The translations under genes were made by a program, and so were the position numbers. 37,885 nucleotides of DNA from Klebsiella planticola ATCC 33531. Its GTDB lineage: Bacteria; Pseudomonadota; Gammaproteobacteria; Enterobacterales; Enterobacteriaceae. Shown piece after piece: positions 2,728 through 9,513 of the stretch. Under the pieces are notes generated by a model. It saw only the letters and a list, made by a program, of their open reading frames with translations. It was not told where the DNA came from and did no database searches. The stretch covers positions 1 to 37,885 of the forward strand of contig NZ_JMPP01000037.1 of assembly GCF_000735435.1 (NCBI RefSeq), written 5' to 3'. The first letter of the stretch is position 1. Every line of letters begins with the position of its first letter.

Positions 2728-4029
2728 TCAGGCAGCGCTCAAATTGGGCAGCTGATGATAGATTGGCCAGCTGAAACAAAAACGAGCGCCGCCCAGAGAG
2801 CTGGCGCCGCAGCTTACCTCGCCGGACATGGCCTGGGCGATACTGTGGACAATCGCCAGCCCAAGTCCGCAACCGCCGGTGGCCCGGTCGCGGCTAGGGT
2901 CGAGACGGACAAAGGGCTCAAACACCCGTTCGCGCTCCTCCGGGTCAATGCCCGGGCCGTCATCTTCAACCTGCAAGGTTGCTCGCGAACCCTGTAGCGT
3001 GAGCCTGACCTGAATTTGCCGGTTGCTGTAGCGCAAAGCGTTATTGACGAGATTATCCAGCACGCGTTCCATCAGACGCATATCAAGCGCGCCATAATCC
3101 CCGGCCACCACTTCCTGTAACGTCACATCACGTTGGGGGTTAACCATTTGAATCTCTTCAACGTGAGCCGCTATCCAGGCGGGAAAATCAGGTGTTGTCA
3201 GATGCAGCTCATTCTGCGGTCGGTCCAGGCGGGCGTAGGTCAACAGCTCCTCGATTAAGGCTTCCAGCTGCCCAATATCGCGGTTCAGCGCCTGAGATTC
3301 CGCTTCGGTCAGGTTTTCACTCATCTCCAGACGATAGCGCAGGCGCACCAGCGGAGTCCGCAGTTCGTGGGCAATTCCGTCGATCAGCAGCTTCTTGCTG
3401 GCGATGAGCGCGTTGATATTGTCGGCCATCTGGTTAAAGGCGACGCCCAGGCGTTCGAAGCTGGACATACTGTCGAAATGAATGCGTTCGGTAAAATGCC
3501 CCTCGCCAAAGCGTTGTGCCGCGGTCTCAAGACGCAACATATCCTGCCAGTGGGGGCGCATCCAGATAAACACGGGAAAGGCCAGCGAAATGGCGATGAA
3601 AGCCATCAGGGCGACATCCAGCAAACGCATCTCGTGGAGGAAGTAGAGGTAGGGGACGGGGCCTACCGACAGAACGTAGTGGCTCCGCGGGATGCGTTGA
3701 ATAAAGGTGTATTCATCATCGAGGGCGACAATATCCCCGGCGCGCAGATGCTGCATCGAGTTTTCCGAGAGCTTAAATTTACTCAGCGGCTCAATATGCA
3801 GATCGAACGACAGATTAAGATCCAGCTCCTTTAGCGTTTTGCTCCAGTCGCGCGGTGGGATTTCCCGCAGCTCGCTACGCATCAGATACAGCGAGCTTTT
3901 CATCAGATCGTCCAGCGACTGCCGGCCCGCACGTTCGGCGGTGAATTTATACACCAGCCCTACCAGCATGGTCATCACCAGGAAGCAGACAAACAGCAGA
4001 AGGTAAAACTGCACAAACAGCTTTTTCAT
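2728..4029 (-). CDS. rstB: Sensor histidine kinase RstB
   Basis: This is the membrane sensor kinase of the RstBA two-component system, which phosphorylates RstA and in E. coli is linked to the PhoPQ and acid responses. The product has 433 residues. It has a membrane segment at about 5-27, a periplasmic domain, a second membrane segment at about 136-157, a HAMP linker, and the dimerisation box GIAHELRTPLVRLR with phosphoacceptor H221. The ATP-binding domain shows NLVNNALRY, DDGPGI and GCGLGLAIV. The ATG at 4029 has AGGTGA five bases upstream. In E. coli rstB directly follows rstA; here its upstream neighbour is a recombinase remnant and rstA lies 4.5 kb away behind a terminator. The source of rstB transcription is therefore unclear, although the protein looks intact. 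Confidence 0.97.
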   Translation of the reverse strand: MKKLFVQFYLLLFVCFLVMTMLVGLVYKFTAERAGRQSLDDLMKSSLYLMRSELREIPPRDWSKTLKELDLNLSFDLHIEPLSKFKLSENSMQHLRAGDIVALDDEYTFIQRIPRSHYVLSVGPVPYLYFLHEMRLLDVALMAFIAISLAFPVFIWMRPHWQDMLRLETAAQRFGEGHFTERIHFDSMSSFERLGVAFNQMADNINALIASKKLLIDGIAHELRTPLVRLRYRLEMSENLTEAESQALNRDIGQLEALIEELLTYARLDRPQNELHLTTPDFPAWIAAHVEEIQMVNPQRDVTLQEVVAGDYGALDMRLMERVLDNLVNNALRYSNRQIQVRLTLQGSRATLQVEDDGPGIDPEERERVFEPFVRLDPSRDRATGGCGLGLAIVHSIAQAMSGEVSCGASSLGGARFCFSWPIYHQLPNLSAA

Positions 4030-4035
4030 CAAATC

Positions 4036-4310
4036 TCACCTAAAAATCAAAAAGTTAACTACCTGTCTTTTACCTTCATGGGCACGATGGGGCATTGGTA
4101 TAACCGCCAGAGCGCTGATTCCGCCACCAACCCGATCGTTAGCAAGGGCATTTATCCCGGCAGAATATACGTGAAAAAGCATTTCTGCGTGGATAAATGC
4201 CCGATTTGATTCGCTATAAAAGCAGGGTTCGCACCGGCTGACAACACCCGGCATGCGTAAGTATGCCGCAGTTGATTGGCACGGCGGCGAATACTTGCCC
4301 TACGTACAGT
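4036..4310 (-). pseudogene. Tyrosine recombinase (phage integrase) C-terminal remnant, frameshifted
   Basis: Reading down from about 4310, the minus strand encodes NQLRHTYACRVLSAGANPAF followed by IANQIGH. This is the R-H-x-[YF]/GH part of the catalytic core of lambda-type integrases. Near 4190-4196 the frame slips by one base. In the neighbouring frame the match resumes with AEMLFHVYSAGINALANDRV, which carries the candidate tyrosine nucleophile in its expected context, and runs to a TGA at 4036-4038. No N-terminal arm-binding or core-binding domain is present, so the gene is a dead fragment of about 90 codons. Its stop lies against the rstB ribosome-binding site. It is evidence that the DNA between rstA and rstB arrived on, or was remodelled by, an integrating element. 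Confidence 0.75.
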
Positions 4311-4507
4311 GGCTTCCTGTCGCGATTGTAGAACTGATAACGGCCAGGAGCGAAGACGTGTCTCCTGAACAAAAACAGCTATCCACAATGGCTGGTCAGG
4401 TTAACTCTAACGGTAGACCACGACTTGATGAACGCACCGGGTTTTATGAAACAGGGGGCTTTTTTGTGACTCCCTGTTTGGCTTTCGGCAGGTAATAAGA
4501 AGGCAGT
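4311..4507. other. Non-coding stretch between recombinase remnant and hydrolase gene
   Basis: I see no convincing gene here. The arms AAACAGGG and CCCTGTTT (about 4449-4482) form an inverted repeat around a 15-base loop downstream of the hydrolase stop. It has no clean T-run for minus-strand termination, so read-through toward rstB is possible. Confidence 0.5.
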
Positions 4508-5521
4508 TCAGTTCCCACATTGCTGCTTAAGGATCCATGATGAGACAGAATTAAGTGCCCCGGGCGAATAGGCGTGTTGCCCGGACAGCAGAAACAATCC
4601 CTGTTTCCACAAAGGCCACTGAGAGGCAAGTTGATAATCAAACCATTCGCTGCGTAAAAGCCCGTGAGTTGCCCCCGGCAACTGCCTGATACAACGCGCT
4701 GTACCCACCGGTAGTGCTTTGCGCCAGACTGCGACTGTTTCATCAGGGTCTACATTCCGGTCATCTTTTCCCATGAGAATGAATACCGGAGTATCTATAC
4801 CTGAAATCTCTTTCGTCGCATCAGCCCGGGAATTCCTGCGCTCGAAGTCCTGTCGCGTACATGGGGTGTTGCAGGGGCGATTAGCCGCTTCTTCTGTAAA
4901 CTGCCTGTCAAAAACCGCGGCTTCATGTTTTTTCGCATCCAGAAGAGCAGACATGGAGCGACCCTCGGCTTTAAGCCGTTGCTCGGTATAGTAAATGCCC
5001 TGATTCCGCCAGTTTATCGCTGGACCTATCAGCACAATAAAGTCAGTTGTTGTTAATTGGCTTGCCTGGGGTACGACCCAACCAGCTTGTGAGAAACCAA
5101 GATAACCTCCGCGACTTTCTTTCAGTTCTGGTTGCTCTCTTAATTTTTGTAACGCCAGAACGGCCTCCCTGGCGCGATCTGACATCGTCTGCGCCAGCCA
5201 GTTTCCGGTACTTTCACCAACGCCCGGTTTATCCCATGAAAAAACAGCTATTCCCTGTGATACAAGGAAGTTAACCAGAGGAATATATCCGCCGTCTGAC
5301 CAGCGATCCTGAGGCCCGTCGCCATGAATTAAAAGCACGAACGGAGGATATACCTTATCTGGCGGCAGAATTAATGTACCCTGGAGGAGATCCTGATGAT
5401 GCGTAAAAGATAGGGTACGCAGCTGCCCGTATCCGGCAAGCTCGAAATCAGATAACCGACTGAACAAAAAAATAATGACCAGGATAATCATAATTGAAAA
5501 TGACACAATATATTTAATCAT
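4508..5521 (-). CDS. Membrane-anchored alpha/beta hydrolase (S33/acyl-hydrolase-like)
   Basis: The product has 337 residues. A strongly hydrophobic segment at about 4-22 should anchor it in the inner membrane with the enzyme domain outside. It has the alpha/beta hydrolase layout: LLIHGDGPQD (64-72) for the oxyanion region, GFSQAG with candidate nucleophile S144, GKDDRNVDP (251-259) for the acidic residue, and GATHGL with candidate catalytic H286. The nucleophile elbow reads G-x-S-x-A-G rather than G-x-S-x-G, a mild departure. Substrate is unknown; close relatives are usually annotated as peptidases or esterases of the serine aminopeptidase S33 type. It is the outermost intact gene of the islet between rstA and rstB and looks less GC-rich than the core genes. 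It ends 479 bases before rstB and may contribute read-through into it. Confidence 0.8.
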   Translation of the reverse strand: MIKYIVSFSIMIILVIIFLFSRLSDFELAGYGQLRTLSFTHHQDLLQGTLILPPDKVYPPFVLLIHGDGPQDRWSDGGYIPLVNFLVSQGIAVFSWDKPGVGESTGNWLAQTMSDRAREAVLALQKLREQPELKESRGGYLGFSQAGWVVPQASQLTTTDFIVLIGPAINWRNQGIYYTEQRLKAEGRSMSALLDAKKHEAAVFDRQFTEEAANRPCNTPCTRQDFERRNSRADATKEISGIDTPVFILMGKDDRNVDPDETVAVWRKALPVGTARCIRQLPGATHGLLRSEWFDYQLASQWPLWKQGLFLLSGQHAYSPGALNSVSSWILKQQCGN

Positions 5522-5614
5522 ATACAGCTCTTTTATGGATTATAAATATTAAACTGCAGCAGATTCTTGTAATGCTTATTTACCGCTTTTGGCAGAAAGC
5601 AGACAACCGCTATG

Positions 5615-6505
5615 TCATGTCACGCGCATCGGTTCCGCCTGCAACCAGCGCTCAAAATCTTGCAGAGCGGGTTCATTTATTCCTGTTTCCACCGGTTTTA
5701 CCAAACAAAATGTCTTGCTCAGTTGTTCGGCGTCCGGCCAGGGCGCAACAAGCAATCCCTGGTTTAACTCTTTTTCTACGTATATGCGCGGCACCATGGC
5801 CACACCTTGTCCCGCCAGTACGGCAGCTATCGCCATTTCATGCAGGTCATAGCGGACTCCCTGTGCCGGGTTATCAAGGACTATCCCACTTTGCCCGGCA
5901 TAATGCAGCCAGGCCTCTGGGTTCTGCCGCCGGTGAATGCGGGGCAGTGTATTCAACTGTTCAAAGATATTCCTGTCGCTTAACAGGTCAGGACGACAAA
6001 CCGGCACCAGTTTCTCCTCAAACAGAACCTGCGTGCGCATACCTGCCCATGCGGGATGCTCGAAATGAATCGCCGCGTCAAATCCGCTCCCGGTGAGAAT
6101 GAAAGGATCGGTTCTCGCCGCGATATTCAATGTGATGTCCGGGTATAAAGACTGGAAGCTGCTGAGCCGGGGAATTAACCAGCGACTGCAAAACGTTGGC
6201 AGGACGGCAATTTCCAGACTTCTGCTGCCCTCAGGCATGCCCATCACGTACTGAGTATCCCGCTCTAACCGCTCGAGCATTTCCCGCACGTGATGGGCAT
6301 AGCGTGAACCCACCGGATTAAGCTTGACCCGGGTTCCCGCACGGTCAAACAGTCTGCACCCGAGCAGAGTCTCCAGGCGGGCAATCTGTCTACTGATGGC
6401 GCCTTCCGTCAGCGATAGCTCCGCGGCAGCACGGGCAAAATTACCGTGCCTGGCAGCGGCCTCAAACGCCTGAAGTGAAGCACTGCTGGGAATTTTTCTG
6501 CGCAT
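5615..6505 (-). CDS. LysR-family transcriptional regulator (GcvA-like)
   Basis: The protein has 296 residues, typical for the family. An N-terminal winged helix-turn-helix covers about residues 8-65 (FARAAAELSLTEGAISRQI), followed by a periplasmic-binding-protein-like effector domain. The N-terminus resembles the GcvA/AmpR branch. The ATG at 6505 has AAGG eight bases upstream; the frame could begin 17 codons earlier, but that would run through a palindromic operator. It is divergently oriented to the three-gene operon starting at 6669. The 163-base gap between them holds one perfect and one short palindrome with shared half-sites. It most likely represses itself and controls that operon. The effector is unknown. 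Confidence 0.9.
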   Translation of the reverse strand: MRRKIPSSASLQAFEAAARHGNFARAAAELSLTEGAISRQIARLETLLGCRLFDRAGTRVKLNPVGSRYAHHVREMLERLERDTQYVMGMPEGSRSLEIAVLPTFCSRWLIPRLSSFQSLYPDITLNIAARTDPFILTGSGFDAAIHFEHPAWAGMRTQVLFEEKLVPVCRPDLLSDRNIFEQLNTLPRIHRRQNPEAWLHYAGQSGIVLDNPAQGVRYDLHEMAIAAVLAGQGVAMVPRIYVEKELNQGLLVAPWPDAEQLSKTFCLVKPVETGINEPALQDFERWLQAEPMRVT

Positions 6506-6540
6506 TAAAATTGCCTTATTCGACGGGGATGCGAGTCGAT

Positions 6541-6557
6541 AGTGACATAATGTCACT
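6541..6557. promoter_or_regulatory. Perfect 17-bp palindromic operator, LysR divergent region
   Basis: AGTGACATAATGTCACT is an exact palindrome around one central base. It lies 36 bases upstream of the LysR start codon. The symmetry is right for a LysR dimer site, although the spacing is not the textbook T-N11-A form. Confidence 0.6.
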
Positions 6558-6605
6558 AATGCTTGAATTAATATCGATTCATTGGCGAATTAACAGCATA
6601 TAGCA

Positions 6606-6620
6606 TGACTAAAAGTCACT
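6606..6620. promoter_or_regulatory. Second candidate operator half-site pair, LysR divergent region
   Basis: TGACT-AAA-AGTCA (6606-6618) is a shorter inverted repeat, and its right part GTCACT (6615-6620) repeats the right half of the 6541-6557 palindrome. The two GTCACT copies are 63 bases apart, about six helical turns, which would suit a tetrameric LysR protein bound on one DNA face. Confidence 0.45.
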
Positions 6621-6668
6621 AAGCAAGGCCATGCAGGCCCTGCGTTTTATTCATGCAGAGGTGAACCG

Positions 6669-7193
6669 ATGTTCTATACCGTGGAGTGCAACTATGCCGA
6701 CCCTGAAAGCGAGCAGGAGTGGAATGCGTTTTACAGCCTGGAAAAGCTGCCTGCGCTTATCTCGGTCACCGGGTTTAGCTCTTCCCAGCGTTTTAAAGCC
6801 CTGAAGCCGGGCGGCCCCCGGTATCTCGCCATTCATACGGTGGAGTACGCAGAGGTGCTTACCAGTGAGGAGTACAAGCTGAAAGGGGGCGGTAATTTTT
6901 CACGCTGGCAAAATCACATCACCGACTGGCACCGTAACTTGTATGAGTGTAAAGGCACCGCTCCCGCGGTAGCCAGTGATGAAATTCTGCTGCTCAGCAC
7001 CCAGCCATTGAGTTTTATTGAGGGGCTGGGATACCCGGCGCTGCAGATGCAGGCGTCAGGGCCAGAAAAAATGCCCGCCCGGCGCATTGCCTATGTGGTG
7101 ACGCGGGAAATTGCCGCGCAGTTAGCTGACATGCCCGGCGCCTGCCTCTATGCGCCGCTGACACCGCAGTTGACGAATCCAGCTCAAGCCTGA
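6669..7193 (+). CDS. Uncharacterised protein, probable dimeric alpha/beta-barrel fold (EthD-like)
   Basis: The product has 174 residues and no signal peptide. The N-terminal part (MFYTVECNYADPESEQEWNA, then FYSLEKLPALISVTGFSSSQ and RYLAIHTVE) resembles ferredoxin-like dimeric alpha/beta-barrel proteins such as the EthD and ABM groups, which act as small-molecule isomerases, monooxygenases or oligomeric accessory proteins. That assignment is from pattern only. AGAGGTG precedes the ATG at a good distance. It is the first gene of an operon, 19 bases before a tautomerase-like gene and divergent from the LysR regulator. The gene pair suggests a role in converting an unsaturated or keto-enol small molecule; I do not recognise a specific function. 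Confidence 0.7.
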   Translation: MFYTVECNYADPESEQEWNAFYSLEKLPALISVTGFSSSQRFKALKPGGPRYLAIHTVEYAEVLTSEEYKLKGGGNFSRWQNHITDWHRNLYECKGTAPAVASDEILLLSTQPLSFIEGLGYPALQMQASGPEKMPARRIAYVVTREIAAQLADMPGACLYAPLTPQLTNPAQA

Positions 7194-7212
7194 TGGGAGG
7201 CGAGTTTATAAC

Positions 7213-7539
7213 ATGCCGAATCTGACGTTTTATATTTCTCAACAACATGCTGGCAGGTTGACTGACCTCCACGGTTTAACGCGTGCCTGCAGTGCGCTCT
7301 GCACCGGCATTCTCGCGGCGGAGTCGGAAAATGTTCATATCATCTATGTTGAGGTGAAACCCGGATGCGGACATCCGGTATATGCCGAACTTTTTTATCG
7401 TCTGACAAGCGAGCGTACGCCAGAAGTCATGGCGGAGTTTATGCGCGAGTTAGAACGAACCATTCGAGAAGCCTCGGGCCTTACGGCGCGTATTCGCTGT
7501 TTTGGCTCTGCTGCATCACACCTGTTTGCGCGTAATTAA
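7213..7539 (+). CDS. Tautomerase-superfamily-like protein with N-terminal proline
   Basis: This 108-residue protein begins MPNLTFYIS, so removal of the initiator methionine would expose an N-terminal proline. That proline is the general base of the tautomerase superfamily (4-oxalocrotonate tautomerase, CHMI, MIF). The beta-alpha-beta pattern is plausible, with IIYVEVKPG and ARIRCFGSAASHLFARN as the later strands. Length and sequence may also fit the related DUF1904 group. The start at 7213 has GGGAGG upstream with rather long spacing. It sits 19 bases after the barrel-protein gene and 12 bases before the metallohydrolase gene, so all three should be translated from one mRNA. Expected chemistry is keto-enol isomerisation; the substrate is unknown. 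Confidence 0.72.
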   Translation: MPNLTFYISQQHAGRLTDLHGLTRACSALCTGILAAESENVHIIYVEVKPGCGHPVYAELFYRLTSERTPEVMAEFMRELERTIREASGLTARIRCFGSAASHLFARN

Positions 7540-7551
7540 CCAGAGGTAACG

Positions 7552-8397
7552 ATGAACCATCGGTCTTTTTCAACCCGTCGGATTGGGGATTTTCTGGTGA
7601 CCGCGCTTAGCGATGGCACGATGTCCGCCAGCCTGGATTTGCTGTCAGGCATTGAAACAGCTGAAGCAACGGTTATTCAACGCAACGCCCGGGTTGCTGA
7701 ACCCGGCAATATCCATATCAACGGCTATCTTATTCAGGGGCGGGGGCGGACTATCCTCGTCGATGCCGGTGCCGGAGGGCTGAATAACGTCGGTGGGCAG
7801 CTCCAGGATAATCTTGGCGCGGCAGGTATCAGCCCCAATGACGTCGATACCGTGTTACTGACGCACGGCCATCCTGACCATATTGGTGGTCTTTTAGATG
7901 CAGATGGGCTACCTGTTTTTCAACGGGCCGAACTTCATCTGCACCCGCTTGAAGCACAATACTGGCACGATGATGAACGATTTAACGTCGCGAATGAGCG
8001 TGGGCAGCGAAATTTTAATCTGGCTCGCCGGACGTTAAACGCGTACGCCCGGCAGCTGCGCTTGCTTGACGAAGGGGAGATAACTGAGGGCATTCTCCCG
8101 GTATGGTTGCCAGGACATACGCCAGGTCATACTGGATTTCGCATCACTTCCGGGGATCAATGCTTATTGATCTGGGGTGACATCGTCCATTTCCCGCATA
8201 TCCAGGCAGCACGGCCGGACGTTTCCATTATTTTTGACTGTGACCCCCTTCAGGCTGAAGAGACACGTAAAAAAATCCTGGCCCAGGCGGCAAGTGAAAA
8301 ACTGCTGGTTGCAGGAATGCATTTAGACAGTTTGGGTTTTGCCAACGTGCTCAGGGCGGACCCGGGATACCGTCTTGCCTGGCGGGAAAATGATTGA
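7552..8397 (+). CDS. Metallo-beta-lactamase-fold hydrolase
   Basis: The 281-residue protein carries the full dinuclear zinc site of the family: THGHPDH (H105, H107, D109, H110), LPGHTPGHTG with H193, WGD with D210, and H257 near the C-terminus. The spacing resembles the lactonase and phosphotriesterase-like branch (AHL lactonases, MPH-type enzymes) rather than true beta-lactamases, and there is no signal peptide, so it should be cytoplasmic. AGAGGTAACG precedes the ATG. It is the last gene of the LysR-linked operon, and transcription probably ends at the hairpin at 8534-8560. With a tautomerase next to it, lactone or ester hydrolysis of an aromatic or quinone-derived compound is a reasonable guess, not a demonstrated function. 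Confidence 0.88.
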   Translation: MNHRSFSTRRIGDFLVTALSDGTMSASLDLLSGIETAEATVIQRNARVAEPGNIHINGYLIQGRGRTILVDAGAGGLNNVGGQLQDNLGAAGISPNDVDTVLLTHGHPDHIGGLLDADGLPVFQRAELHLHPLEAQYWHDDERFNVANERGQRNFNLARRTLNAYARQLRLLDEGEITEGILPVWLPGHTPGHTGFRITSGDQCLLIWGDIVHFPHIQAARPDVSIIFDCDPLQAEETRKKILAQAASEKLLVAGMHLDSLGFANVLRADPGYRLAWREND

Positions 8398-8476
8398 TCA
8401 CAGGGAGAGATTGACAAATGAAAAGTCGGGCGCCAGGGGGAGGCCGATTTTTCCCCTTGATGCGCCGCAGCGGGGA

Positions 8477-8494
8477 GCTGACGGAATCGTCAGC
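8477..8494. repeat. Seven-base inverted repeat hairpin downstream of the MBL gene
   Basis: GCTGACG (8477-8483) pairs with CGTCAGC (8488-8494) around a four-base loop. There is no T-run, so it is not a classical terminator. It lies in the apparently non-coding 8398-8533 segment at the right edge of the islet. Confidence 0.5.
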
Positions 8495-8533
8495 CGTGCG
8501 CGGCAGGCGACGGAGGGACAGAGCGCTGCCGAC

Positions 8534-8560
8534 AAAAAACCACCCGCAGGTGGTTTTTTT
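8534..8560. terminator. Bidirectional Rho-independent terminator between the islet operon and rstA
   Basis: An A-run, the stem CCACC/GGTGG around loop CGCA, and a T-run give a terminator that works in both directions. It should end the MBL operon from the left and the rstA transcript from the right. If so, rstA transcription does not reach rstB. Confidence 0.9.
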
Positions 8561-8584
8561 CGCGCTCGACGGCCGGACGGTAAG

Positions 8585-9301
8585 TTAATTGTCCCAGGCG
8601 TGAGGGGCGAACAGATATCCTTTATTGCGCACCGTCTTGATGCGATAAGGCTCGGTCGCGCTGTCGAGCAGTTTTTTCCGCAGGCGCGAAATCGCCACAT
8701 CCACACTGCGATCCATACCATCGTAACTGACGCCGCGCAGATTTTTTAGCAGCGCATCACGATCCATAATCTGTCCGGCGTGGGTGGCCAGTTCCCACAA
8801 CAGCTCAAAATCAGCCGTTGAGAGCGCCACGCTCTCGCCACCGAGCAATACCTGACGGTTAACCGGGTCGATGAGCAGTGAACCGAATGTAATCGATTTA
8901 TGCGGCGTGAGCGACGCCGGAGCATTGGTCACGGGAGAGGCGATGTGCTGGCGCAAATGCAGACGCAGACGTGCCAGCAATACCGCCGGCGGCGTGGTCT
9001 TCAGAATGTAATCGCTGGCGCCCATTTCCAGGGACAAAATATGGTTCATATCGCTGTCGAGCGAGGTGAGCAACACAATCGGACCTTGCCACTGGCCACG
9101 CAGATCGCGGCACAGGGTCATGCCGTCTTTGCCAGGCAGCATAATATCCAACAACACCAGGTCGGGTTTTTCCCGCGCGATAACCTCTTCTGCCCGGTCG
9201 CCTCGTGGTTCAACCACCACTTCCATATCGTGCTTTCCGAGATAAGCGGCAATCAGGGCGCCCACTTCCGGATCATCCTCAACAAAAACGATCTTATTCA
9301 T
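8585..9301 (-). CDS. rstA: Response regulator RstA
   Basis: This is an OmpR/PhoB-type response regulator paired with RstB. The 238-residue product has a receiver domain with the acidic pocket E8-D9-D10, phosphoacceptor D52 in LVLLDIMLPGKDG, and conserved T79 and K101. A C-terminal winged helix follows (TADFELLWELATHAGQIMDR, then SVDVAISRLRKKLL and IKTVRNKGYLFAPHAWDN). Length and sequence match E. coli RstA closely and the gene is intact. In E. coli rstB would follow within a few bases. Here the stop at 8585 is followed by a terminator hairpin and the islet. In other enterics rstA is activated by PhoP; I did not find a clear PhoP box upstream. Confidence 0.97.
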   Translation of the reverse strand: MNKIVFVEDDPEVGALIAAYLGKHDMEVVVEPRGDRAEEVIAREKPDLVLLDIMLPGKDGMTLCRDLRGQWQGPIVLLTSLDSDMNHILSLEMGASDYILKTTPPAVLLARLRLHLRQHIASPVTNAPASLTPHKSITFGSLLIDPVNRQVLLGGESVALSTADFELLWELATHAGQIMDRDALLKNLRGVSYDGMDRSVDVAISRLRKKLLDSATEPYRIKTVRNKGYLFAPHAWDN

Positions 9302-9359
9302 ATCTTACTTGTACTGGAAAAAGAATTAACATACACCGCCACCAGACTACCTGCCATTA

Positions 9360-9377
9360 CTCTTTTATAAAAAAGAG
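9360..9377. repeat. A/T-rich inverted repeat upstream of rstA
   Basis: CTCTTTT (9360-9366) pairs with AAAAGAG (9371-9377) around ATAA, within the divergent rstA/ydgC intergenic region (9302-9549). It could be a regulator site or a weak hairpin; no family is recognisable. Confidence 0.3.
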
Positions 9378-9485
9378 GTCATCCTTCAAGCGGCCCCGGC
9401 GTTTGCTTCGCGTGCTGAACGGCCAGCCGGTTATCCAGGCTTAGAGCATTCGCCCTTACGCCGCTCAGGGGGGATTCGAATGATA

Positions 9486-9513
9486 TTGTGAATATATGTA
9501 CTTCCGTTATGCT
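9486..9513 (+). promoter_or_regulatory. Candidate sigma-70 promoter for ydgC
   Basis: TTGTGA (9486-9491) and TATGCT (9508-9513) are separated by 16 bases and lie about 37 bases before the ydgC start codon. The elements are moderate matches. Confidence 0.4.

Follow-up and report, generated by a model that had tools for sequence, protein, structure and literature searches.

The locus examined here raises the question of how two genes that are neighbors in E. coli, the response regulator gene rstA and the sensor kinase gene rstB, came to lie 4.5 kb apart, and from which signals the second is now expressed. The whole stretch of DNA analysed, referred to hereafter as the window, comprises 37,885 nucleotides from Klebsiella planticola ATCC 33531 (contig NZ_JMPP01000037.1). 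Both genes are full length and lie on the minus strand. rstB (2728-4029) matched the NCBIfam equivalog NF007898 with 804.7 bits (cut-off 478) and rstA (8585-9301) matched NF007977 with 461.5 bits (cut-off 330). For rstB, the ATG at 4027-4029 is the better reading of the start, and a TTG at 4032 was dropped in favor of this ATG 3 nt further on. The profile matches and open reading frames confirmed the original prediction that the two genes are intact and are split by five genes. The islet between them (4030-8584) carries an S33-like alpha/beta hydrolase gene (4508-5521, minus strand as rstB; Pfam PF12146), a LysR-type regulator gene (5615-6502, minus strand; PF00126 and PF03466) and, on the plus strand, genes for a 174-aa protein (6669-7193; no Pfam family above cut-off), a 108-aa protein (7213-7539; no Pfam match) and an MBL-fold hydrolase (7552-8397; PF00753), all of which we regard as cargo.

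A bidirectional intrinsic terminator had been predicted directly after rstA, and the hairpin at ~8534-8560 folded strongly on both strands (-26.1 and -27.6 kcal/mol, z -2.3 and -2.8); it ends rstA on the minus strand and the MBL gene on the plus strand. A consensus scanner did not report this hairpin, probably because its T tract was counted into the stem. Because the terminator and 4.5 kb separate rstB from rstA, rstB needs another source of transcription. The earlier claim that rstB is cut off from the rstA promoter therefore stands, although it missed the frequency of split junctions among relatives, the prophage attachment site, the phage-made leader and the promoter-like integrase fragment described below. 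A regular-expression search for a PhoP box upstream of rstA gave no match in the window and was uninformative because the E. coli locus was also blank.

The adjacency of the two genes in E. coli was borne out in 5426 genomes, of which 5374 matched the pair and 5364 did so in one place. One place here means at least 80% coverage of the pair, so that inserts of up to ~1.5 kb could escape this count; of 40 matches sampled at even steps, 39 spanned 2021-2022 bp as a single piece. Comparison of the interval across relatives gave a different picture. Among the best 80 RstB loci in named genomes, 6 lacked rstA and the junction was split (at least 290 bp, n=37) in 37 of the 74 with both genes, the others being tight (less than 80 bp, n=37). 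Split loci with varied cargo were found in Klebsiella, Raoultella, Kluyvera, Citrobacter, Enterobacter, Lelliottia, Leclercia and Salmonella. In a family-wide sample, 41 of 136 genomes were split (220 bp to 39 kb, 14 genera) and 95 had fewer than 80 bp, among the matches listed (150 each for rstB and rstA, from 218 and 220 matching genomes, respectively) and with both genes on one contig and strand. Two rstB and ten rstA matches, none with a listed partner, were left out of this sample, and 2 of the 138 genomes with both genes were set aside with the genes on different contigs. These counts do not reveal why individual lineages are split; the search for integrase remnants covered the named loci and the window. 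Among the matches listed, at least five genomes of the genus that includes S. arizonae had 2.1-3.6 kb between rstA and rstB, and a transcription start for rstB has been reported in late-stationary S. Typhimurium in the accessible part of PMC3963941. In Citrobacter and Salmonella loci (L074, L078 and L087, for example) the RstA frames extend several codons beyond the usual WDN-type end.

The split is not universal in the genus. Eleven named loci, from Klebsiella or Raoultella with two labelled Enterobacter sp., had RstB at least 91% identical; four of these had a 15-bp junction and one a 59-bp junction. The type strain of Raoultella ornithinolytica (RstB 99% identical, rstA-rstB spacing 4745 bp) had the same five islet genes (85-96%) and an integrase remnant (92%) in the same place. 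The cargo of the window itself was seen in one of the 80 best named RstB loci. The titles and abstracts of the searched literature, from which subscription journals were mostly absent, contained no prophage or insertion at rstA/rstB, which does not imply absence in print, and the accessible part of a paper on K. pneumoniae RstA (PMC12131781) does not mention the split.

The origin of the islet is indicated by the DNA next to rstB. The stretch at 4030-4292 (minus strand) consists of a leader preceded by the degraded 3' portion of a Rac-like tyrosine integrase gene, as identified by blastn and tblastn and by collinearity with the right ends of prophages. A recombinase remnant had been noted before, and it was recovered here both as a weak Phage_integrase match of the frame at 4152-4388 (E=6.6e-4, 19.9 bits, under the cut-off of 27.1) and by alignment with the right end of a prophage in Enterobacter quasihormaechei (locus L080). 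This alignment was 79% identical (259 of 327 nt), its final 59 nt being rstB; with rstB excluded, identity was 76% over 267 nt. The integrase end, the leader and the start of rstB thus form one collinear phage-host junction, suggesting that phage DNA replaced the leader of rstB. The aligned integrase remnant is broken by frame shifts and stops, with traces at the protein level up to ~4340 (tblastn). Within it, 17 nt at ~4184-4200 are exactly inverted relative to the prophage sequence TCTGCGTGGATAAATGC and form a small inverted duplication. When up to 1.5 kb upstream of rstB was searched in the 41 loci without an obviously intact integrase gene, the window included, 24 kept integrase DNA and none kept any from more than ~320 nt before rstB. 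Retention of the integrase 3' end may be an edge effect of its position beside rstB.

Prophages are present at this site in other genomes. In E. quasihormaechei (L080) and E. wuhouensis (L094), a full-length integrase ORF of 426 aa stops ~30 bp before the rstB ATG, and it is only as a remnant that the window has an integrase gene beside rstB. The L080 integrase has Arm-DNA-bind_2 and Phage_integrase domains; among phage proteins its closest kin are the integrase of PHB10 (55% identity) and a Rac intR (52%). Genes for an excisionase, RecT and a RecE-type exonuclease precede it, so that within 10 kb beside rstB all the features by which we recognize a Rac-like prophage (IntR-type integrase, RecE, RecT and excisionase) were found. 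In this genome rstA and rstB are 56 kb apart, two contig records of identical length being taken as one. Of 80 loci returned from IMG/VR, we considered the 28 closest to the L080 integrase. Twenty of these continue into the rstB core; among the remainder L148 reaches a diverged core, five stop short of the core and L140 and L143 adjoin something else. The strict core pattern was not seen in the other 52 of the 80, which carry Rac-like integrases ~52% identical. In L140 and L143 the integrase leader and a partial rstB core are followed at ~4311 by DNA that is not rstB, which suggests a second, abutting element.

The attachment core is the first ~26 nt of rstB (4004-4029, minus strand in the window) and is duplicated at the left ends of prophages, as seen in L212, L217, L218, L205 and L210. 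In L212 a copy of the 26 nt that open rstB stands directly behind the rstA stop and gives way to other DNA. Direct repeats at both ends were found in L217/L080, which belong to one genome with the contig taken as one, and in L218/L094, which belong to one genome on different contigs. Relics of the core were found exactly 15 nt past the rstA stop in K. michiganensis (21 of 26 nt, shuffled maximum 17) and, weakly, in K. indica (17 of 26, shuffled maximum 16); 15 nt is the spacer length in tight relatives. The window had no left core above chance (best 16 of 26 nt against a shuffled maximum of 17). With only one copy of the core recognizable, the window is a scar and not a prophage.

The leader between the integrase end and the rstB ATG (4030-4061, minus strand) resembles that of L080 and contains AGGTGA, a Shine-Dalgarno-like sequence. 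Over 34 nt it was 0.79 identical to the prophage leader, compared to a mean of 0.49 and a maximum of 0.65 for 300 shuffles. Among 49 right ends, 25 had a leader at least 0.66 identical to that of L080, five of them phage or prophage ends with a full-length integrase gene; the other 24, which include the loci L045, L067, L076, L082 and L091 that carry the element described below, did no better than the shuffled maximum. Of 41 split loci, 28 had GGTGA and 37 had GGTG within the last 16 nt ahead of the rstB ATG; the corresponding numbers for 37 tight loci were only 2 and 9, and GGTGA preceded the ATG in five of seven prophage junctions. The loci in these leader and GGTGA counts, and in those for the element, share kinship and are not independent trials. 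We infer from these likenesses that translational coupling of rstB to rstA has been replaced by a phage-derived ribosome site.

A candidate for the rstB promoter lies within the integrase remnant. The element at 4213-4244 (minus strand) reads TTGTCA-N17-TTTTAT with TGC before the second hexamer, an arrangement that suggests a promoter of the extended -10 type. The -10 hexamer has T instead of A at its second position, which is atypical for sigma70. Readings of the element as a sigma54 site, a PHO box or an RstA box were dropped after comparison by eye with the consensus sequences. The 600 nt upstream of rstB were searched for similar stretches in 42 split or scarred loci that lack an obviously intact integrase gene. 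In 13 of them a stretch matched at least 24 of the window's 32 nt and exceeded the shuffled maximum of its locus, and 11 of the 13 had exactly TTGTCA-N9-AANCCTGC-TTTNAT. Although this pattern was drawn from split rstB loci, a search of 392 genomes for the exact form (ending ATA) found it once each in 10, which represent six genera, one of them contributing four genomes; every match was ~60-200 nt upstream of rstB on the rstB strand. In IMG/VR it occurred twice, in L250 within sequence resembling an older islet of L217 and in L251 within integrase-like sequence at a contig end; the latter suggests that some phages already carry the element. Four Enterobacter-type integrases that were compared have TTGTCG at the first block.

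Promoter scans gave weak scores. In 200 bp, p was 0.05 or lower in 8 of 43 split loci and 3 of 37 tight loci; the window scored 0.72 because the element lies just outside that stretch. In 300 bp, the corresponding numbers were 3 of 38 and 0 of 37, and the best site in the window was the element itself (p=0.11). The two scans used different sets of split loci (43 and 38), L056 being left out of the 200-bp scan on account of an N. A consensus scan of 3900-9500 found as many promoter-like sites as in shuffles and none in the rstB leader; because it requires the second -10 base to be A, it cannot list the element. We put the chance that 4213-4244 functions as a promoter at about even. The rstB start reported in late-stationary S. 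Typhimurium and the case of prophage HK022, from within which torS is transcribed, are independent hints in favor of such a promoter.

Alternatively, the islet could be of prophage origin while most rstB transcripts come from read-through of the hydrolase gene, as originally suggested, or from another start, 4213-4244 being an integrase fossil. This alternative falls somewhat short of even odds. rstB shares its strand with the hydrolase gene, and the single hairpin examined in the interval separating the two folded no better than shuffles (z 0.17) and is no terminator, so the earlier suggestion survives. The poor -10 hexamer, the window's p of 0.11, the lack of the element in 29 of the 42 split loci and the exact pattern on one phage-like IMG/VR contig all agree with a fossil. 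Against it, the exact matches in the 392 genomes lie only upstream of rstB. Furthermore, in 15 loci chosen by the pattern the hexamer blocks are steady while the spacer and flanks drift, with a mean agreement of 0.90 in the element columns (inflated by choice by pattern) compared to 0.45 and 0.51 in the flanks.

Another alternative is that the split loci descend from one ancient insertion, which many lineages later lost through precise excision or replacement of the allele, rather than from a hotspot that was entered repeatedly. A single event would fit the presence of similar leaders and of one and the same element in Raoultella, Klebsiella, Lelliottia, Enterobacter, Salmonella and further genera, and also that some cargo is common to different genera. 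As a separate observation, a cargo protein of ~590-660 aa is encoded in islets at this site in both Klebsiella and Kluyvera (L043, L046, L055 and L061) and hints at exchange between genera. We nevertheless regard one insertion as unlikely. Tight 15-bp junctions occur beside split relatives (K. oxytoca, K. spallanzanii and R. terrigena), and full-length integrase matches, 68-98% identical, are found at the rstB site in present-day contigs. The site has also been used more than once: an older islet lies ahead of the left core in L217 (1.4 kb) and L218 (0.6 kb), and both resemble other Enterobacter islets. A prophage therefore sits atop an older islet in L217, and the same is indicated in L218. 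The older islets, at ~1960-3368 in L217 and ~1886-2482 in L218 (reverse strand), lie between rstA and the core of the newer prophage.

Most of the cargo in the window has its own history. Of 392 genomes, 23 had the 174-aa gene, counting that of the window, and of 20 chromosomal places examined, one being that of the window, 18 of the other 19 had LysR and MBL genes adjacent. Neither rstA nor rstB was found in the flanks examined at those 19 places. The LysR/174-aa/108-aa/MBL group is thus a travelling cassette and not a partner of rstAB. NCBI names relatives of the 174-aa protein 'sugar ABC transporter', a name that looks wrong. By eye alone, the 108-aa protein looks tautomerase-like. By profile, the MBL protein resembles the AidB lactonase only distantly (218 bits with the AidB-type AHL lactonase model NF047979, below the cut-off of 360); its closest cluster, 98% identical, is named Raoultella planticola. 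Ordinary insertion of cargo by homologous recombination, with the integrase remnant incidental, would agree with the occurrence of the cassette elsewhere but is very improbable, since the remnant passes into rstB without interruption and supplies the leader, just as the right ends of prophages do.

The reading we prefer, with a probability of roughly 80%, is that the islet is a domesticated prophage scar that has uncoupled rstB from rstA and left it dependent on phage-derived signals or read-through. A temperate Rac-like phage with RecE/RecT and an IntR-type integrase would have recombined its attP with the first ~26 nt of rstB. Integration would have moved rstA and the original spacer away and placed the integrase 3' end and a short phage leader before the restored rstB. 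The prophage would then have been lost save for that end, and the hydrolase gene and the cassette would have come to lie between the integrase remnant and rstA. For rstB, translation would now begin at the phage-derived site, and transcription would start in the captured integrase fragment at 4213-4244 or reach the gene by read-through, but would not come from the rstA promoter. More tentatively, Enterobacteriaceae phages may repeatedly have entered the rstB start codon and left an integrase fragment that was domesticated as promoter and ribosome-binding region of the kinase gene, making two independently controlled genes in many lineages, including Salmonella and Raoultella. If so, a phage attachment site has rewired a conserved two-component system on a long evolutionary time scale, swapping the expression signals of the kinase without breaking its gene. 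Assumptions about RstA/RstB co-expression that are based on E. coli need not apply in Klebsiella, Raoultella, Citrobacter, Enterobacter or Salmonella, and the split loci allow a direct test of how regulator and kinase behave when their expression is uncoupled.

Prophages of the Rac type (IntR, RecE/RecT) offer one close comparison, L080 having a 52% identical integrase and RecT and RecE-type genes near it. Rac's own attachment site is ttcA, whereas that of the L080 type is the 5' end of rstB. Other elements also enter genes at the 5' end, as SXT does in prfC. SpyCI in mutL likewise has its attachment site at the 5' end of a gene and supplies element DNA as the new upstream region, as described in the accessible part of PMC4129442. 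SpyCI and SXT have other hosts and integrases, and the gene entered here comes second in a two-component operon. A prophage likewise separates a sensor-kinase gene from its native control in E. coli, where HK022 (and Gally) lies between torS and torT and, in the HK022 prophage, torS is driven from a promoter inside the prophage (accessible parts of PMC6814406 and PMC9928086 for the position, PMC6814406 for the promoter). In contrast to HK022 at torS, as far as those parts describe it, the core here is the coding start of rstB within a closely spaced rstA-rstB pair and the phage is of the Rac-like kind; its DNA appears to make the ribosome site as well, decayed forms are spread across genera and the promoter is a candidate.
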